Source: Pirellulales bacterium
GTDB taxonomy: Bacteria > Planctomycetota > Planctomycetia > Pirellulales > JAEUIK01
Assembly (NCBI GenBank): GCA_019745975.1
Contig: JAIESQ010000138.1
Span: 1-32,950 of the forward strand
Reading direction: 5' to 3'
DNA: 32,950 bases
A model generated the notes under the pieces. It saw only the letters and a program-made list of their open reading frames with translations. It made no database searches and was not told the origin of the DNA. The position numbers and the translations under genes are program-made. Shown piece after piece: positions 1,008-21,867 of this stretch (positions are counted from its first letter, which is position 1; every line of letters starts with the position of its first letter).

Positions 1008-1095
1008 TTCTTCGTCAGCCGGTAGGCCCGGCAATGCGCCAGCGCAGGCCGGAAACGACTCCCGTCCCCCGCGCGGCGCTGGGCAGGGCGCTACG

Positions 1096-1127
1096 ACAGG
1101 AGCCACCTGGCGCGCCAGCCTGCGTGC
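1096..1127. repeat. Dispersed ACAGGAG..CTGGCGCGCC element, copy A
   Basis: A 32-base segment beginning ACAGGAG and containing the perfect 12-base palindrome CTGGCGCGCCAG (1107-1118). It matches 19526-19557 with about five substitutions, one of which breaks the outer part of the palindrome. It sits just before the REP-like pair in both places. Confidence 0.5.
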
Positions 1128-1156
1128 TGCGGCGAGAGCCATCGCGAGACCAATTG

Positions 1157-1190
1157 GTTAGCTGCGGGATTTATCCCGCGCGCTAGCTCG
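1157..1190 (-). repeat. REP-like palindrome A1 (inverted orientation)
   Basis: Core hairpin GCGGGAT-TT-ATCCCGC (1164-1179) flanked by GTTAGC on the left and GCTAGC on the right, so the whole unit is an interrupted palindrome. It is the reverse complement of the type seen at 19774-19803. Together with 1240-1269 it forms a facing pair about 83 bases apart, as in bacterial BIMEs. Confidence 0.6.
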
Positions 1191-1239
1191 TAAGACGTCG
1201 CGCTACCACTGCGCGAGTTTTGATGTCGCGTCGAGCGTG

Positions 1240-1269
1240 CTAGCGCGCGGAGCAAGCTCCGCGGCTAAC
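1240..1269 (+). repeat. REP-like palindrome A2 (direct orientation)
   Basis: Core hairpin GCGGAGC-AA-GCTCCGC (1247-1262) with TAGC on the left pairing to GCTA on the right. The arms differ from A1 but compensate on both sides (GGAGC/GCTCC in place of GGGAT/ATCCC), so the fold is conserved more than the sequence. Confidence 0.6.
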
Positions 1270-1283
1270 AATCGCCCACGAGT

Positions 1284-1614
1284 ACCCGGACGCAAACTGC
1301 GCGATGTTACATTCGCCCCAAGTTGTGCCCACAATTTGAGTTCGGGTCCAATAGCAAAATACCCGGACGCAAACTGCGCGGTGTTACATTCGCCCAAAGT
1401 TGTGTTCTCTATTCGAGTTCGGGTCCAATATCAAAACACCCGGACGCAAAATGCGCGGTGTTACACCCGCCCCAAGCTGTGCTGTCCATTCGAGTTCGGG
1501 TGCAATGGCAACACACCCGGACGCAAACCGGACGATCACCCGGACGCAAATCGCGCGGTGTTACACCCGCCCCAAGCTGTGCTGTCCATTCGAGTTCGGG
1601 TGCAATGGCAACAC
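1284..1614. repeat. 77-bp tandem repeat array, four units plus a partial insertion
   Basis: Units start at 1284, 1361, 1438 and 1538, each exactly 77 bases, all opening with ACCCGGACGCAAA. Between the third and fourth full units a 23-base partial copy of the unit start (1515-1537) is inserted. The units at 1438 and 1538 are almost identical (only two or three differences, near the start), so that duplication is recent; the first two are more diverged. In each unit the opening ACCCGGAC can pair with GTTCGGGT about 60 bases later (8 pairs, one G-U), leaving a short CAATxxCAAxAC linker. No spacers are present, so this is not a CRISPR array, and 77 is not a multiple of three. Confidence 0.85.
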
Positions 1615-1628
1615 ACCCGGACGCACCC

Positions 1629-1662
1629 GGACGCAAATTCCCGGACAAACTTATTCTGGGGG
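1629..1662. repeat. CCCGGACAA-CTTATTCTGGGG dispersed element, copy A
   Basis: A 34-base element that begins GGACGCAAATTCCCGG and ends in a G-run. It matches 19930-19963 with a single mismatch. CCCGGA (1640-1645) can pair with TCTGGG (1655-1660) through a 9-base loop with one G-U pair, so it may be a small hairpin. Its opening motif is shared with every unit of the adjacent 77-bp array. Confidence 0.7.
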
Positions 1663-1740
1663 ATCCTCGATACCCCCCGATCGCGGCCCGCGACGTGATC
1701 GTGGGTCGTGCGCTCGCGCGATCGCTCTTTCCTCTCCACT

Positions 1741-1769
1741 GAACACCGAAAACTGAACACTGAACACTA
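1741..1769. repeat. TGAACAC short-repeat tract abutting a stop codon
   Basis: A 29-base tract built from GAACACCGAA, AACTGAACAC and TGAACAC-like words. It lies directly 3' of the lipoprotein gene ending at 1774: on the minus strand the TAG is followed by GGGTTAGTGTTCAGTGTT. A near-identical tract occurs at 19490-19518. Confidence 0.65.
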
Positions 1770-1773
1770 ACCC

Positions 1774-4212
1774 CTACTCCGTCACGCTCCAGGCCGTCAG
1801 TCCTTCGGTGGTCGAGATCAAGAGCACCGCTTGACCGTTGATCGTCGCCGTGGCGATGCCGCACGGGGCCGCGCCCAGCGTCCAGCGATCGACCAAGGCG
1901 CCGTCGGCGGCCAGCACGTGAATGGCCCCGTCGGCGCTGGCGACAATCCACCGGCCGGTGCTGCCGACGCGCCCGCCGGTAACCGCTTCGATCGGATGCT
2001 GATGCAAGCCTGGCGGAAGCTCATAGGTCCACAATTCCTTGCCGTCGAGCGCGAAACCAACCAGCGTGTCGCGGACCTGGTCGACCGGCGCCAAACCACA
2101 CCATTCCACCTGACCGTCGCCGTCGAGATCGGCGCTGGCGATCGAACGAATGAACCGTTTGCCCACGGTGATCTCAGCGCCAGCTTGACCCGTGGCGTCG
2201 AGGTTCACCAGCGTGCCGCGGCCATGAGCCGCCAGCACGCGCCGCTTGCCCTCGGCATCGCGGCCGGTCGTTGCCAGACGAAAGACGTTTTCGAGCGAAG
2301 CATGCTTCCAGCGGTCCTCACCTGCCAGCGAGACCACTTCGATACCGCGATTGCCCCAGTAACCGGAGACGACTTCCAATTGTTCGTCGCCATCAAGATC
2401 GGCCAACAGCACGTCGGCCACTTCGGCTTCGTCCTTGGGCAAGCTGAGCACGGTTTTCCAGGCGTCGTCGAACAAGTGCCACTGGCGCTGGGCGCTGGCA
2501 CAACCGACGAACCAGCGCCGTCCGTCGGCACCGGCGGCCGTGCGCAGCGAGCTCACCACGGCCGCCTGACCGACGTTCAGATCGTGCGTGGCGGCGACTG
2601 TGCCATCACCCTGGAGCTCGACGACCTTGTTCCAACCGTCGTTGACGAAGATCGAGCCGGCCGCTGGGCCCTCGTCGATCACCAGGATGTTGCCTGGTTG
2701 ATTGATGCCTTGCGCGGTCCAGAGCTTCGCGAGCTTGAGCGTGGTCGGTTCCGTGGCCGGCGCGATCTCGGCTTTGGCCGGTGCGTCGCTGGCGGCCGTG
2801 GCGGTAGTCAACGGTTCCTTGAGCCACGCTTCGTGTTCGCGCTTGCGTTCCTCGTAGCGCTCGCGCGCCAGGGCGTGCAGGCTTTCGCCGGCCAGCAGCG
2901 TTTCGATGCGCGTCGGCAGCTCGGTCGCCAGTTGCGGATTGAAGCCGACTTCGTTGTCTTCGACCGTACCGTCGGGCCCGAGCACGAAGAGATTGGGAAT
3001 GCCTTCGATGCCAAACACCTGGAACGCTGCCTGATTGTGGTCGCGGGCGATCGTCACACCGACCTTGATCTTGTCGAAGGCTTCGCGGAGCTTGGCGTCG
3101 TCGATATCGGGTCGATCGATGCTCACGGCCAGAAACAGTACCTTGTCGTTGCCGGCGAATTTCTGTTTAGCCGCGTCCAGGTTCGGCAGGCTAGCCAGGC
3201 AGGGCTCGCACCAGGTCGCCCAGAAGTCGACGATCACGATCTTGCCGGCCAGCGAGTCGCGGGTGAGCGGCGTGCCGTCGAGCCCTTTGAACTCGAAGGC
3301 GTCGATCTTGCTGCCCAGCAGCTTCGATGGCTCGGGTGGTCCGGGCACCAGGGCACGCGTATCGAATTGCGCGACGATCTTGGCGTCGCTCGGCACTTCA
3401 AAGGCGAAGGCCACGTCCTCGATCGGACGATTCACCTGCGCGGCGTGCAACTCAGCGGTCAGCGTGGCGTCTTTGACCGCGGTGCCGGTTTGTTGTTCGA
3501 GATACTTGGCCAGATCGCCTGCCGGAAAGTCGACACGCAACAGCAAGTGGCTCTTCTGGCTAACCCAGAAGATCAGCTTGCCGCCGGCGCGGTCGATCTC
3601 GACGCGATCGCAGGTTTCCTCCTCGAACTTCTCCGGCGTAAGCAGTTTCGGCGCGAACGTCCCTTCGAGGATCTGCTTCAAGAAGTCTTCAGTCAAAAGC
3701 AACGTCAACTGCGGCAGACTGCCGGCGATCTGCGCGGTGAGGGCCTGCCCAAGCGACTCATCGGCGTAGAGCGCCTCCTGCGTTAGGGTGGCCGGAGTGT
3801 CGAACTCGAGCACCTGGCCCGCGAGGTCGCCAATGGTAGCACGGACCTTACGACCATCGCTGGCGACCATGGCGCGGTAGCCCTGAATGCGCACGCGATT
3901 CGGTCGGGCAAACGAGACGGCAAACGGCACCTGCTCGGTGACCGGCTGCCCGTCGCTTCCGGTGAACTTGAGCCGCAGCTCGCCCGAGTCGGCATAGGTC
4001 TTGGCAGCTCGATACGTGGCACACATGTCGCGCAACACTTGTTCGGCTGCCGGACGCGCCGACGATCCGCCGCCAGGAGCACAGCCGGCAATGGCCGCGA
4101 GCAGCGCCAGTGCCGCGACGGCGCCGTGCCACGTCGATCGACGGCCCACTCGTTGCGCGCGGTTGGACGTATTTGCGTTGAGCGGCAAGTGGGTAGCGAC
4201 GCGATCCGTCAT
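1774..4212 (-). CDS. Lipoprotein fusing LolA-like, TlpA thioredoxin and FG-GAP/propeller domains
   Basis: An 812-residue exported protein. A positively charged N-terminus and hydrophobic stretch (about 30-43) end in a lipobox with Cys44 (IAGC), so it is probably lipid-anchored. Residues about 55-290 resemble LolA/DUF2092 domains (RPNRVRIQGYRAMV, then a beta-rich fold). Residues about 300-445 are a TlpA/redoxin domain with the active site WCEPC (Cys336, Cys339), predicted to reduce or isomerise disulfides in the periplasm. A charged linker (about 448-495) leads to a C-terminal region with FG-GAP/VCBS-like repeats (LLADLDGDEQLEVVSGYWG, ASADLDGDGQVEWCG). The combination is typical of planctomycetes; substrate unknown. 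It is divergent from the LarA-like gene, separated by about 240 bases. Confidence 0.88.
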   Translation of the reverse strand: MTDRVATHLPLNANTSNRAQRVGRRSTWHGAVAALALLAAIAGCAPGGGSSARPAAEQVLRDMCATYRAAKTYADSGELRLKFTGSDGQPVTEQVPFAVSFARPNRVRIQGYRAMVASDGRKVRATIGDLAGQVLEFDTPATLTQEALYADESLGQALTAQIAGSLPQLTLLLTEDFLKQILEGTFAPKLLTPEKFEEETCDRVEIDRAGGKLIFWVSQKSHLLLRVDFPAGDLAKYLEQQTGTAVKDATLTAELHAAQVNRPIEDVAFAFEVPSDAKIVAQFDTRALVPGPPEPSKLLGSKIDAFEFKGLDGTPLTRDSLAGKIVIVDFWATWCEPCLASLPNLDAAKQKFAGNDKVLFLAVSIDRPDIDDAKLREAFDKIKVGVTIARDHNQAAFQVFGIEGIPNLFVLGPDGTVEDNEVGFNPQLATELPTRIETLLAGESLHALARERYEERKREHEAWLKEPLTTATAASDAPAKAEIAPATEPTTLKLAKLWTAQGINQPGNILVIDEGPAAGSIFVNDGWNKVVELQGDGTVAATHDLNVGQAAVVSSLRTAAGADGRRWFVGCASAQRQWHLFDDAWKTVLSLPKDEAEVADVLLADLDGDEQLEVVSGYWGNRGIEVVSLAGEDRWKHASLENVFRLATTGRDAEGKRRVLAAHGRGTLVNLDATGQAGAEITVGKRFIRSIASADLDGDGQVEWCGLAPVDQVRDTLVGFALDGKELWTYELPPGLHQHPIEAVTGGRVGSTGRWIVASADGAIHVLAADGALVDRWTLGAAPCGIATATINGQAVLLISTTEGLTAWSVTE

Positions 4213-19270: not shown

Positions 19271-19363
19271 ATCCCTTTCTTGCCCGAACTCTTGGCGCCT
19301 CGGCGCTTGAGCGCGAGGTTTTCCGAGGCCGGCAAGCAGGGCGGACGTGGCCATTTTTGACCC

Positions 19364-19391
19364 TTGACAAATGAACATAAATATGTACAGT
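19364..19391 (+). promoter_or_regulatory. Promoter-like sequence with overlapping dyad in an AT-rich patch
   Basis: A consensus TTGACA (19364-19369) is followed 16 bases later by TACAGT (19386-19391). Within the spacer lies an imperfect dyad TGAACAT-AAAT-ATGTACA (19372-19389). On the plus strand there is no gene downstream, only repeats. It may be a relic of the degraded insertion element or a chance AT-rich patch. Confidence 0.25.
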
Positions 19392-19489
19392 AATAGGTGC
19401 TAGACTTGAGTCCTGAGACTTGCGGAGTGCCGACGTCCGCGCGGGTGCCATGCCCACGCTTGTCGTGGGCATGCCTGCGATCGATCCCC

Positions 19490-19518
19490 TGAACACCGAA
19501 CACTGAAAACTGAACACT
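19490..19518. repeat. TGAACAC short-repeat tract, copy B
   Basis: GAACACCGAA-CACTGAA-AACTGAACACTA: the same word set as 1741-1769, with the two central words exchanged. It immediately precedes the ACAGGAG element. Confidence 0.6.
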
Positions 19519-19525
19519 AGCCGTT

Positions 19526-19557
19526 ACAGGAGTCGCCTGGCGCGCCGGCGTGCGCGC
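19526..19557. repeat. Dispersed ACAGGAG..CTGGCGCGCC element, copy B
   Basis: Matches 1096-1127 over 32 bases with about five substitutions; the GGCGCGCC core is retained. Confidence 0.5.
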
Positions 19558-19687
19558 AATTGAAAAACCAACCAGCCCGCATCTCCCCCAGGGGCTTCGC
19601 GATTCAGCGGAATCGTTTGTTTGAGTCGGAGCGGAGAGCTGCGTCCGCCGTGCGCGCGGTCGGAACAAACATCCCGCCGATCGACTT

Positions 19688-19740
19688 GTTAGCCGCGGAC
19701 TTCGGCGAGCTCAGCCGAGCCGAGCTTGCTCCGCGCGCTA
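19688..19740 (-). repeat. REP-like palindrome B1 (inverted orientation)
   Basis: Begins GTTAGCCGCGGACTTCGG and ends GCTCCGCGCGCTAAAG-like; the arms resemble the unit at 1157-1190 but the centre is longer, with GAGCTCAGCCGAGC-type inner dyads. It pairs with B2 about 86 bases further on, close to the 83-base spacing of the A1/A2 pair. Confidence 0.5.
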
Positions 19741-19773
19741 AAGCGTTCGTCGCTAAATCGAACCTCACGCGAG

Positions 19774-19803
19774 CTAGCGCGCGGGATGAATCCCGCGGCT
19801 AAC
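19774..19803 (+). repeat. REP-like palindrome B2 (direct orientation)
   Basis: CTAGCGCGCGGGAT-GA-ATCCCGCGGCTAAC-type unit with a perfect 7-base stem GCGGGAT/ATCCCGC (19781-19796). It is nearly the exact reverse complement of A1 (1157-1190). Confidence 0.6.
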
Positions 19804-19840
19804 GAGTGCTTAGGACGCAAAACCACGCTTAGGACGATCG

Positions 19841-19870
19841 AGGACGCAACGGCTTTGGATTTTGCGTCCT
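19841..19870. repeat. GGACGCAA inverted repeat
   Basis: AGGACGCAA (19841-19849) and TTGCGTCCT (19862-19870) are perfect complements around a 12-base loop. A further direct GGACGCAAA lies at 19813. The same motif opens every unit of the 77-bp array in block A. Confidence 0.55.
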
Positions 19871-19929
19871 AGAATAAATCTTTGCTGCTAAACGACTTAA
19901 CCACTTTTGACAGCCGCTTAGGACGGTTA

Positions 19930-19963
19930 GGACGCAAATTCCCGGACAATCTTATTCTGGGGG
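19930..19963. repeat. CCCGGACAA-CTTATTCTGGGG dispersed element, copy B
   Basis: One mismatch to 1629-1662 over 34 bases. The copy continues into a run of eight G. CCCGGA (19941-19946) can pair with TCTGGG (19956-19961). Confidence 0.7.
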
Positions 19964-20056
19964 GGGTAGTGCCCAGGCTGAGAATCGAGCGCCGGCAAGA
20001 GGCGAACACGAAAGCAAGCCGTCGTGACCCGATGCGCGGTCACTTACCACGAGCCA

Positions 20057-20764
20057 CTAACCACTAACCTTCGCCCCGCGACGCGGCTTCTTGTCGCCAG
20101 CCGCCGGTTTGTTCACGGCGTCGCTGGCCAAGGGAGCCGCCAGGTTGATCTCCACCCCTTTGCACTCGATCTCCCGCTGATTCAGGCCCGAACCGGTCAG
20201 CACGATGTTGTCTCCCTTGCGGGCGACCGAATAGTCGGAGAAGTCGACACGCACCTTGACCTTGTCGGCGAGCTTGATTTTGAACGGCTTGTTGCCGGCC
20301 GTGACCGTCAGCAACCCCTTCTTCAAGGTCTTGACCTGGCCGGCGACCAGACACGGGACACTGATTTGCTTAGGATCGATGGCGTTGTCGGGAAACATGC
20401 CCACCTGATAGCCGTCGCCCGGCAGAAAGAGTGTCACCTCCTCGACCTCGGCCCCTTTGACCGGGGCGAGTCGCTTGGTGACCGGCACGGTGAACCGCGC
20501 GAACGCGCCCGGCACGATCGCCGCCGGCTCGATCTCGCCGGTCACCTGCACTTTGGTTTCCTTCGTGACATAGGCGATGTGCGGCACATTCGACTTGTCG
20601 GTCCAGGTGATCTTGCCCGGTTCGACCGCGACGACTTCCCCTTCGAGGTGATTGAACATGAACTTGTCGGCCGCGGCCGCTAGCGAGCAACTGGCAAACA
20701 GCGCGATGGTCGCTGCGGCCGCCGACAAAGCGATCGATTGGCAAACGAATGGCAGGCGAATCAT
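20057..20764 (-). CDS. Secreted protein of unknown function
   Basis: A 235-residue exported protein. Residues 1-33 form a signal peptide with cleavage probably after SLAAAA. The mature part is beta-rich and Lys-rich (FMFNHLEGEVVAVEPGKITWTD; AYVTKETKVQVTGEIEPAAIVPGAFARFTV; VKTLKKGLLTVTAGNKPFKIKLADKVKVRVDFSDYSVARKGD), suggesting two small barrel-like domains, but I recognise no family. AAGGA nine bases upstream supports the ATG at 20762-20764. The last codons (AKVSG then TAG) fall within a CACTAACC-type repeat, which supplies the stop. The gene is divergent from panB with 228 bases between them. Confidence 0.75.
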   Translation of the reverse strand: MIRLPFVCQSIALSAAAATIALFASCSLAAAADKFMFNHLEGEVVAVEPGKITWTDKSNVPHIAYVTKETKVQVTGEIEPAAIVPGAFARFTVPVTKRLAPVKGAEVEEVTLFLPGDGYQVGMFPDNAIDPKQISVPCLVAGQVKTLKKGLLTVTAGNKPFKIKLADKVKVRVDFSDYSVARKGDNIVLTGSGLNQREIECKGVEINLAAPLASDAVNKPAAGDKKPRRGAKVSG

Positions 20765-20992
20765 CGGCGAATTCCTTCGCTGGTTCCTTGAAAAAGTCGG
20801 GCGCCCGCGGGCGTCAATACGGCATGACGTGACGTACGCCAACATACTTTGCCGCAAGGCCTGAAACCAGCGATTCCACCGTTGTCGAGCGGCGGCGTCC
20901 ACGGTTGCCAGTCTGCGACGCGAAGGCGACAATGCGACAGGATCGCGAAATTCAGGCAGGCAGCGGCGATCGGCCGCGCTGAAAGACTCACC

Positions 20993-21793
20993 ATGACCGG
21001 CCAGCAGCAGCAAATCACGGTTCCACAGTTCGTCGGCTTCAAGCGCGAAGGCCACAAGATCTGCGTGGTCACGGCTTACGACTATCCGACGGCCGAACTG
21101 GTCGATGCGGCCGGCGTCGACGCCATCCTCGTCGGCGACAGCCTGGCCATGGCCGTGCAAGGGCACGCGAATACCTTGCCCGTCTCGCTCGATGAGATGA
21201 TCTATCACGCGGAGATGGTCGGCCGGGCGGTGCGACACGCCTTGGTCGTGGTCGATATGCCGTTTCCAAGCTACCACTTGGGCCCCTACAAGGCGGTGGA
21301 AAACGCCGGGCGCATTTTGAAGGAGACGCGCTGCCATGCGGTGAAGCTCGAAGGGGGCGCCGATCAGGCCGACGTGATCCGGGCGCTCGTCATGGCTGGC
21401 ATTCCAGTGATGGCGCATTGCGGGCTGCGGCCGCAAAGCGTGCACGCGCTGGGCGGCTACAAAGTACAGCGCAACGAGACCCAACTGATGGCCGACGCCC
21501 GCGCGGCCGAAGAGGCCGGCGCGTTCGCGATGGTGCTCGAGTGCATCCCAGCTCAATTGGCCACCAAGATCACCGCGGCGGTGGGCATCCCCACGATCGG
21601 CATCGGGGCGGGCGCCGGCACCGATGGCCAGGTGCTGGTGATCAACGATCTGTTGGGGATCACCAGCGGCTACGTGCCGCGGTTCGTCAAGGCGTACGCC
21701 GATTTGAAGACCACCATCACGACAGCCGTCGGCAAGTACTGTGCCGACGTGCGAGCTGGCGCCTTTCCCGGGCCCGAGCAGACATTCAAGTAG
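20993..21793 (+). CDS. panB: 3-methyl-2-oxobutanoate hydroxymethyltransferase
   Basis: A 266-residue enzyme that transfers a hydroxymethyl group from methylenetetrahydrofolate to ketoisovalerate, giving ketopantoate for pantothenate and coenzyme A. Key residues are in place: Asp49 in VGDSLAM and Asp88 in VVDMPF (magnesium ligands), Glu120 in VKLEGG, and the catalytic Glu183 in LECIP; GIGAGAGTDGQVLVINDLLG is also typical. The ATG at 20993 gives the standard length. The downstream DUF255 gene follows after 74 bases in the same direction. panC and panD are not nearby. Confidence 0.96.
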   Translation: MTGQQQQITVPQFVGFKREGHKICVVTAYDYPTAELVDAAGVDAILVGDSLAMAVQGHANTLPVSLDEMIYHAEMVGRAVRHALVVVDMPFPSYHLGPYKAVENAGRILKETRCHAVKLEGGADQADVIRALVMAGIPVMAHCGLRPQSVHALGGYKVQRNETQLMADARAAEEAGAFAMVLECIPAQLATKITAAVGIPTIGIGAGAGTDGQVLVINDLLGITSGYVPRFVKAYADLKTTITTAVGKYCADVRAGAFPGPEQTFK

Positions 21794-21867
21794 ATGCGCA
21801 CGCCGCGCGGTCGACTTGGCCGGACGCCAGTGCGCCACGCTCACGGATTCAACGAAAGTAGTGCGCG

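Follow-up and report, generated by a model that had tools for sequence, protein, structure and literature searches.

Two blocks of repeats raise the question of whether neighbouring repeats form a single unit, and one tied to the 3' ends of genes, or have come together by independent insertion. Both lie in the window analysed here, a stretch of 32,950 nt from a Pirellulales bacterium. The original prediction held that the same repeat families occur in the same order in 1008-1773 and 19487-20056, and inspection of the sequence bears this out, with every named part of both blocks present in its place and in that order. The left starts were refined to about 1049 in block 1 and to 19364, earlier than predicted, in block 2. 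The right ends had been placed about 95-110 bases before the stop codons of minus-strand genes, and the measured distances are 114 bp in block 1 (stop at 1774) and 96 bp in block 2 (stop at 20057). The parts of the two blocks are as follows.

1049..1069, plus strand: block 1, half of the 'so' hairpin module (CCGGAAACGACTCCCGTCCCC), the recognisable left edge of the block
1096..1127, plus strand: block 1, G module, ACAGGAG..CCTGGCGCGCCAGCCTGCGTGC
1157..1269, no strand assigned: block 1, REP pair, with an inverted unit at 1157-1187 and a direct unit at 1239-1269
1284..1659, plus strand: block 1, E element of subfamily B, four tandem-like units and then the shared right end GGACGCAAATTCCCGGACAAACTTATTCTGG (1629-1659)
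1658..1680, plus strand: G/C-run tract after the E element of block 1 (GGGGGATCCTCGATACCCCCC)
19364..19397, plus strand: block 2, P1 module, promoter-like (TTGACA-16-TACAGT), the left end of the full unit
19445..19473 (about), plus strand: block 2, Q hairpin (GTGCCATGCCCACGCTTGTCGTGGGCATG)
19485..19519, plus strand: block 2, K heptad tract (CTGAACA/CTGAAAA repeats)
19526..19557, plus strand: block 2, G module, ACAGGAG..CCTGGCGCGCCGGCGTGCGCGC
19558..19657, plus strand: block 2, H module, terminating in GCTGCGTCCGCCGTGCGCGC
19688..19803, no strand assigned: block 2, REP pair, with a diverged left unit and the right unit at 19773-19803
19810..19960, plus strand: block 2, E element of subfamily A with six GGACG motifs, five direct and one inverted, and AATTCCCGGACAATCTTATTCTGG at its end
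19959..19966, plus strand: G run directly after the E element of block 2

The GGACGCAA parts of the two blocks belong to one element, E, but to different subfamilies, B in block 1 and A in block 2. In block 1 the GGACGCAA array starts at 1284 and comprises four units spaced 77-100 bp apart, followed by the right-end motif CCCGGACAAACTTATTCTGG at 1640-1659; in block 2 the GGACGCAA part spans 19810-19940 and the right end 19941-19960. The shared block end, GGACGCAAATTCCCGGACAA[A/T]CTTATTCTGG, is 97% identical between the blocks over 34 nt, and the window contains 10 occurrences of GGACGCAAA where 0.47 would be expected, none of 100 shuffles reaching 10. A CTGAACA/CTGAAAA heptad tract is found both inside the unit, at 19485-19527, and at 1735-1773, where it abuts a stop codon and belongs to no unit.

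E is present in many copies across the 7.0-Mb genome. The E motif GGACGCAAATTCCCGG, which is the R6-plus-right-end pattern of the element, has 110 matches with at most one mismatch, and the right-end motif CCCGGACAANCTTATTCTGG has 100 with at most two mismatches, the reversed-pattern controls giving 0 in both cases. The counts below refer to 89 copies returned by a fuzzy pattern in retrieved locus DNA (90 rows, from which one false row in L062 was removed); copies outside this set include L034:2818, L060:5003, one at 3334 on the minus strand of L064, a diverged one at about L090:724 and those in later-retrieved loci. Several copies are cut by contig ends, and the many copies at such ends help to explain the assembly breaks there. 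From the first GGACG to TTCTGG, E measures 148 bp in 41 of 45 A copies, 8 of 9 C copies and 7 of 9 D copies, the deviating copies being partly truncated or having a changed first motif. The GGACG motifs sit at offsets 3, 21-22, 32-33, 111 and 120, with an inverse at 55, alike in subfamilies A, C and D. The letters preceding GGACG are TTA in A, CTT or TTT in C, CCG in D and ACCC in B; within one copy these prefixes mostly vary jointly, and chimeras with mixed prefixes also occur (for example L067 and L088). Subfamily B is modular, consisting of repeated units of about 77 bp with total lengths of 118, 160, 218, 295 or 372 bp, the last being that in the window. E copies have common left and right ends and unrelated flanks, and 85 of the 89 have a run of at least five G or C no more than 20 bp from the right end, versus about 3% expected from other intergenic DNA. 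The sequence GGGGACCCCC is seen only beside E ends, 32 times in the counted flanks and twice more at uncounted copies. Two D-type copies, L066 and L072, have a common right flank as far as the next gene, which suggests a segmental duplication.

The region of 900 bp to the left of E was scanned at the 89 copies, and the modules follow the order P, (cw), Q, K, G (ACAGGAG..CCTGGCGCGCC), H, REP pair and E, all left modules being optional. Core module pairs are concordant in 262 cases and reversed in 0 across the 89 loci, counts that are not independent trials because E copies are related by descent, and asymmetric modules share the orientation of E in 202 of 203 cases. Genome-wide, E lies downstream on the same strand within 800 bp of 16 of 17 P1 matches, 38 of 41 G matches and 24 of 25 H matches; the matches lacking E all run into contig ends, and where the contig permits a test the linkage is 16/16, 38/38 and 24/24. 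E itself often stands without left modules, and the 61 copies with at least 900 bp upstream divide into those with P (24), G without P (9), REP only (1), only N, N2, Y, Z or X (14) and no module (13). Because P1, G and H have E downstream wherever this is testable, the cassette is indeed a single composite unit, with E as its obligatory end. The original prediction of one 3'-end unit thus stands as regards the single unit but fails as regards the tie to gene 3' ends, considered below, and the inclusion of the REP pair.

The REP pair is an optional passenger and not integral to the cassette. REP has 152 matches genome-wide (places are given for the first 100), and a direct REP is matched only 23 times within 900 bp to the left of the 89 E copies; therefore, most REPs lie away from E. 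The REP slot is filled in other copies by N, N2, Y, Z or X modules, and Y is likewise more loosely linked, with E beside 12 of its 17 matches. Several modules, including H and G in most loci, share the ending ..TGCGCGC, by which the array resembles short cassettes with a shared 3' end; an integron cassette array (attC) was considered as a class because the short modules end alike.

Within this fixed order, the left part and E have partly separate histories. On a tree of the region from P to G (33 rows; support is modest, with 4 of 30 inner branches starred), the E subfamily takes 13 changes versus a shuffled mean of 13.1, and 122 of 200 shuffles are as low, so that subfamily is uncoupled from the tree. 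Loci L095 (subfamily A) and L104 (subfamily C) are near-identical from the cw hairpin to G and diverge from a module boundary onwards, beyond which the REP spacer, the E subfamily and the flank are all different. Despite this exchange of subfamilies, left parts always have some E where this is testable. From these mosaics we infer that modules are exchanged by recombination.

Both blocks are probably copies of an interspersed repeat that is composite, non-autonomous and lineage-specific, an intergenic mosaic element. The same parts, order and end piece recur at dozens of intergenic sites, and the cassette therefore looks like a home-grown mobile repeat and not a gene-end signal. E, with its phased GGACG motifs, one of them inverted, is the obligatory right end, and a full unit adds a left part made of the sigma-70-like promoter P, the hairpin Q, the heptads K and then G and H. 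E-ended units would be copied to new intergenic sites by a trans-acting enzyme that recognises E, recombination between copies would swap E subfamilies and passengers such as RAYT-type REPs, selection would clear copies from genes, and transcription through the unit probably starts from the promoter-like left end. Movement is read from copy number and flanks alone. The element is unusual in its promoter-like left end, in its obligatory but exchangeable right end, which is followed by a G/C run, and in showing neither terminal inverted repeats nor a trace of target duplication. With about 110 copies in one genome, it constitutes a natural experiment on the building of mosaic repeats.

The search of the genome and of related planctomycetes that the original prediction proposed recovered the family in its own genome and no homologues in the relatives. 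Among 97 genomes searched as relatives, E is present only in the own genome, bar one match with two mismatches in G048, and it is absent from the six genomes of the same family that are part of the 97. A covariance model of E applied with stricter filters to a 392-genome sample of the phylum, and the G module searched in 57 genomes, likewise found the own genome only. Exact-pattern scans of GTDB contigs, which may omit the genome's own records, and of viral contigs gave no homologue, and a partial literature search found no publication describing an E-ended element.

The cassette is best described as akin in kind to BOX, BIME and NIME elements and is related to none of the sequences tested. 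NIME-type elements are intergenic mosaics of repeat units that accumulate side by side, and E-ended units, too, are intergenic mosaics of neighbouring repeat units. NIME elements are delimited by inverted repeats, as are Correia elements according to PMC3049150, whereas the outer ends of E-ended units lack them. In BOX elements of Streptococcus (boxA-boxB(n)-boxC), short subsequences follow one another in order and the internal units between the end modules vary in number, and those of S. suis contain seven subsequences in particular permutations (PMC3049150); the fixed right end E, the 262:0 order and the variable lengths of B-type E follow the same pattern. Compared by description, the E-ended unit is longer, with more slots, and differs in its obligatory E and its promoter-like left end; no similarity to an insertion sequence was found at its ends, whereas BOX ends are reported to resemble one (PMC3049150).

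The likeness to BIMEs and RAYT-type REPs lies in the pairs of REPs in alternating orientation within a composite (PMC2817692 and PMC3733652) and in the 'cw', 'qq' and 'so' hairpins beside Y1-transposase genes of the own genome. Alternating REP palindromes occur in both window copies, and inverted and direct REPs stand to the left of other E copies, but REPs are not found in all copies, the others having N, Y, Z, X or nothing recognised. Moreover, E is itself no 20-40-bp palindrome, and P, G and H are not REPs. Like CGTC-tagged REPs, the E motif on the other strand (TTGCGTCC) contains CGTC; however, on alignment E lacks the 8-9-bp stem, 4-5-bp loop and CCA tail of those REPs (PMC3733652), and its motifs sit at fixed offsets within a 148-bp element.

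E meets the description of a MITE in being small and non-coding with many intergenic copies. Its left end TTAGGACGCAAAAC and the inward reading of its right end, CCAGAATAAG, show no match that would make them terminal inverted repeats, and flank similarity of the kind left by target duplication was equalled in 115 of 1000 shuffles for 84 copies, in 69 of 1000 for the 26 copies with no module close by and in 650 of 1000 for 18 P1 units. A classic MITE was rejected on both counts, and the non-inverted ends together with the lack of a target-duplication signal indicate no standard transposition mechanism. No transposase domain was found in 10 ORFs near E or in long E-side gaps that might represent an autonomous copy. 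The genome-wide search for mobility genes covered the Y1-transposase only and gave 15 matches, 14 of them above the cut-off; several of these genes are adjoined by 'cw', 'qq' and 'so' hairpin modules, whereas the E right end lies near only 1 of the 15, and E as a RAYT-mobilised REP was rejected for this reason. RAYT loci with their own 'so', 'cw' and 'qq' hairpins are L118, L119, L120, L121, L122 and L124, the 'so' module lying near the RAYT genes of L118 and L121, and some RAYT-locus hairpins recur as passengers inside E units.

If E-ended units spread whole, IS-driven MITE and RAYT-driven REP mechanisms offer no obvious explanation. It is conceivable, if doubtful, that the family represents a distinct class of mobile unit, with a regulated-promoter leader, ordered and interchangeable non-coding cassettes ending in ..TGCGCGC and a swappable but obligatory E cap, whose spread involves neither terminal inverted repeats nor target duplications and leaves a G/C run at the right end of the unit. 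Such a class would imply an undescribed mechanism of assembly or copying.

P1 (17 distinct copies, tallied genome-wide) and P2 (9 copies, a tally not drawn from a genome-wide search) are both built of two hexamers 16 nt apart, the first TTGACA-like and the second TA-rich, and their spacers differ. In a consensus scan the window P1 at 19364-19391 scores 10/12, and shuffled regions contain 0.3 promoter-like sites each; P is promoter-like, resembling a sigma-70 promoter by sequence similarity. By eye, TGNNCA-like half-sites are visible in the P1 spacer (19370-19385 in the window) and a palindrome like TAGCCACCGGTTGCTA in P2 spacers (L045, L069 and L095), as if these were operators.

An alternative reading, which we regard as unlikely, is that the full copies are genes for structured non-coding RNAs that run from P through Q-K-G-H to E and act in trans, and that E is a conserved 3' domain in which the first GGACGCAA motif (R1) pairs with the inverted one (R4) in a hairpin. 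Such a gene would fit the fact that P1 and P2, whose spacers differ, both place TTGACA 16 nt ahead of a TA-rich -10, and that P forms the left end of 24 of the 61 copies with sufficient upstream sequence; against it, 13 of the 61 have no recognised left module, and folding is about as good on one strand as on the other. In the R1-R4 helix 96.3% of cells are paired, and three pairs are altered on both sides; however, in the covariation test proposed with the original prediction this number of both-side changes was reached in 310 of 500 shuffles. Covariation was rejected as proof of the hairpin because direct, unpaired GGACG copies change along with the paired ones. Rfam gave 0 matches in the window at the gathering threshold and 0 in 19300-20056 at E values up to 1, and a known RNA family was rejected for the cassette. 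A CsrA-type sponge was considered as a possible reading of the repeated GGA.

Copying through RNA is very unlikely: here a P-to-E transcript would be reverse-transcribed and inserted, the G/C run would be a non-templated tail, and the putative enzyme would be a resident group II intron reverse transcriptase. The fixed right end followed by a variable run of G or C, the promoter-like left end and, in L001, the presence of group II intron sequence next to E agree with this. Against it, E copies without left modules start at a fixed point, with no random truncations, and the run, which can consist of either G or C, frequently takes the fixed form GGGACCCCC, by which it reads as part of the element. 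The group II intron match in L001 (L001:277-358) lies immediately to the left of E and is Rfam-confirmed, and an intron motif lies 13-80 bp to the left of E in 4 of the 89 copies, those in L036, L042 and L085 being recognised by motif only. Such sequence is found directly to the left of E or of an adjacent Y module, in several cases at contig ends, which would fit entry of group II introns, too, into the slot left of E.

Returning to the composite mobile repeat as the preferred reading, the independent insertion of E and other repeats at common intergenic hot spots has very little probability beside it. REPs, Y modules and group II intron ends do occur near E, REPs and Y occur elsewhere too, and E is found without left modules, but every testable P1, G and H has E downstream and the order and orientation are invariant. 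Independent insertion is thereby largely refuted for P1, G, H and E, a refutation that does not extend to REP, N, Y, Z and X.

None of the 89 E copies overlaps a predicted gene. The gene to the right of E faces it with its stop in 40 copies and with its start in 49, and stops make up 131 of 344 ends (38%) in comparison gaps of at least 150 bp without E versus 45% for E; the tabulation of stop distances called for by the original prediction thus reveals no special tie to stops, and a gene-3'-end function was rejected. Where E faces a stop, its right end lies 31-155 bp away in 36 of 40 copies, a spacing that is consistent with insertion outside transcribed genes and calls for no 3'-end function. 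Gene positions come from an in-house script that missed at least one likely gene, a 497-codon frame beside L096, and so the two distances at that locus, 1501 and 1762 bp, are overestimates. A processing or termination unit at the 3' ends of the flanking minus-strand genes is hardly credible, since, although this spacing holds and both window copies fit it, 49 of 89 copies face a gene start, 45% stops is close to the 38% expected and a scan of the window found no terminator-like site at the E right end. A cassette beside a stop codon in a single window is no evidence for a 3'-end signal. The genes beside the window copies are ordinary: that at 20057-21844, next to block 2, has no Pfam match, and that at 1774-4038, next to block 1, encodes an AhpC/TSA-type protein.
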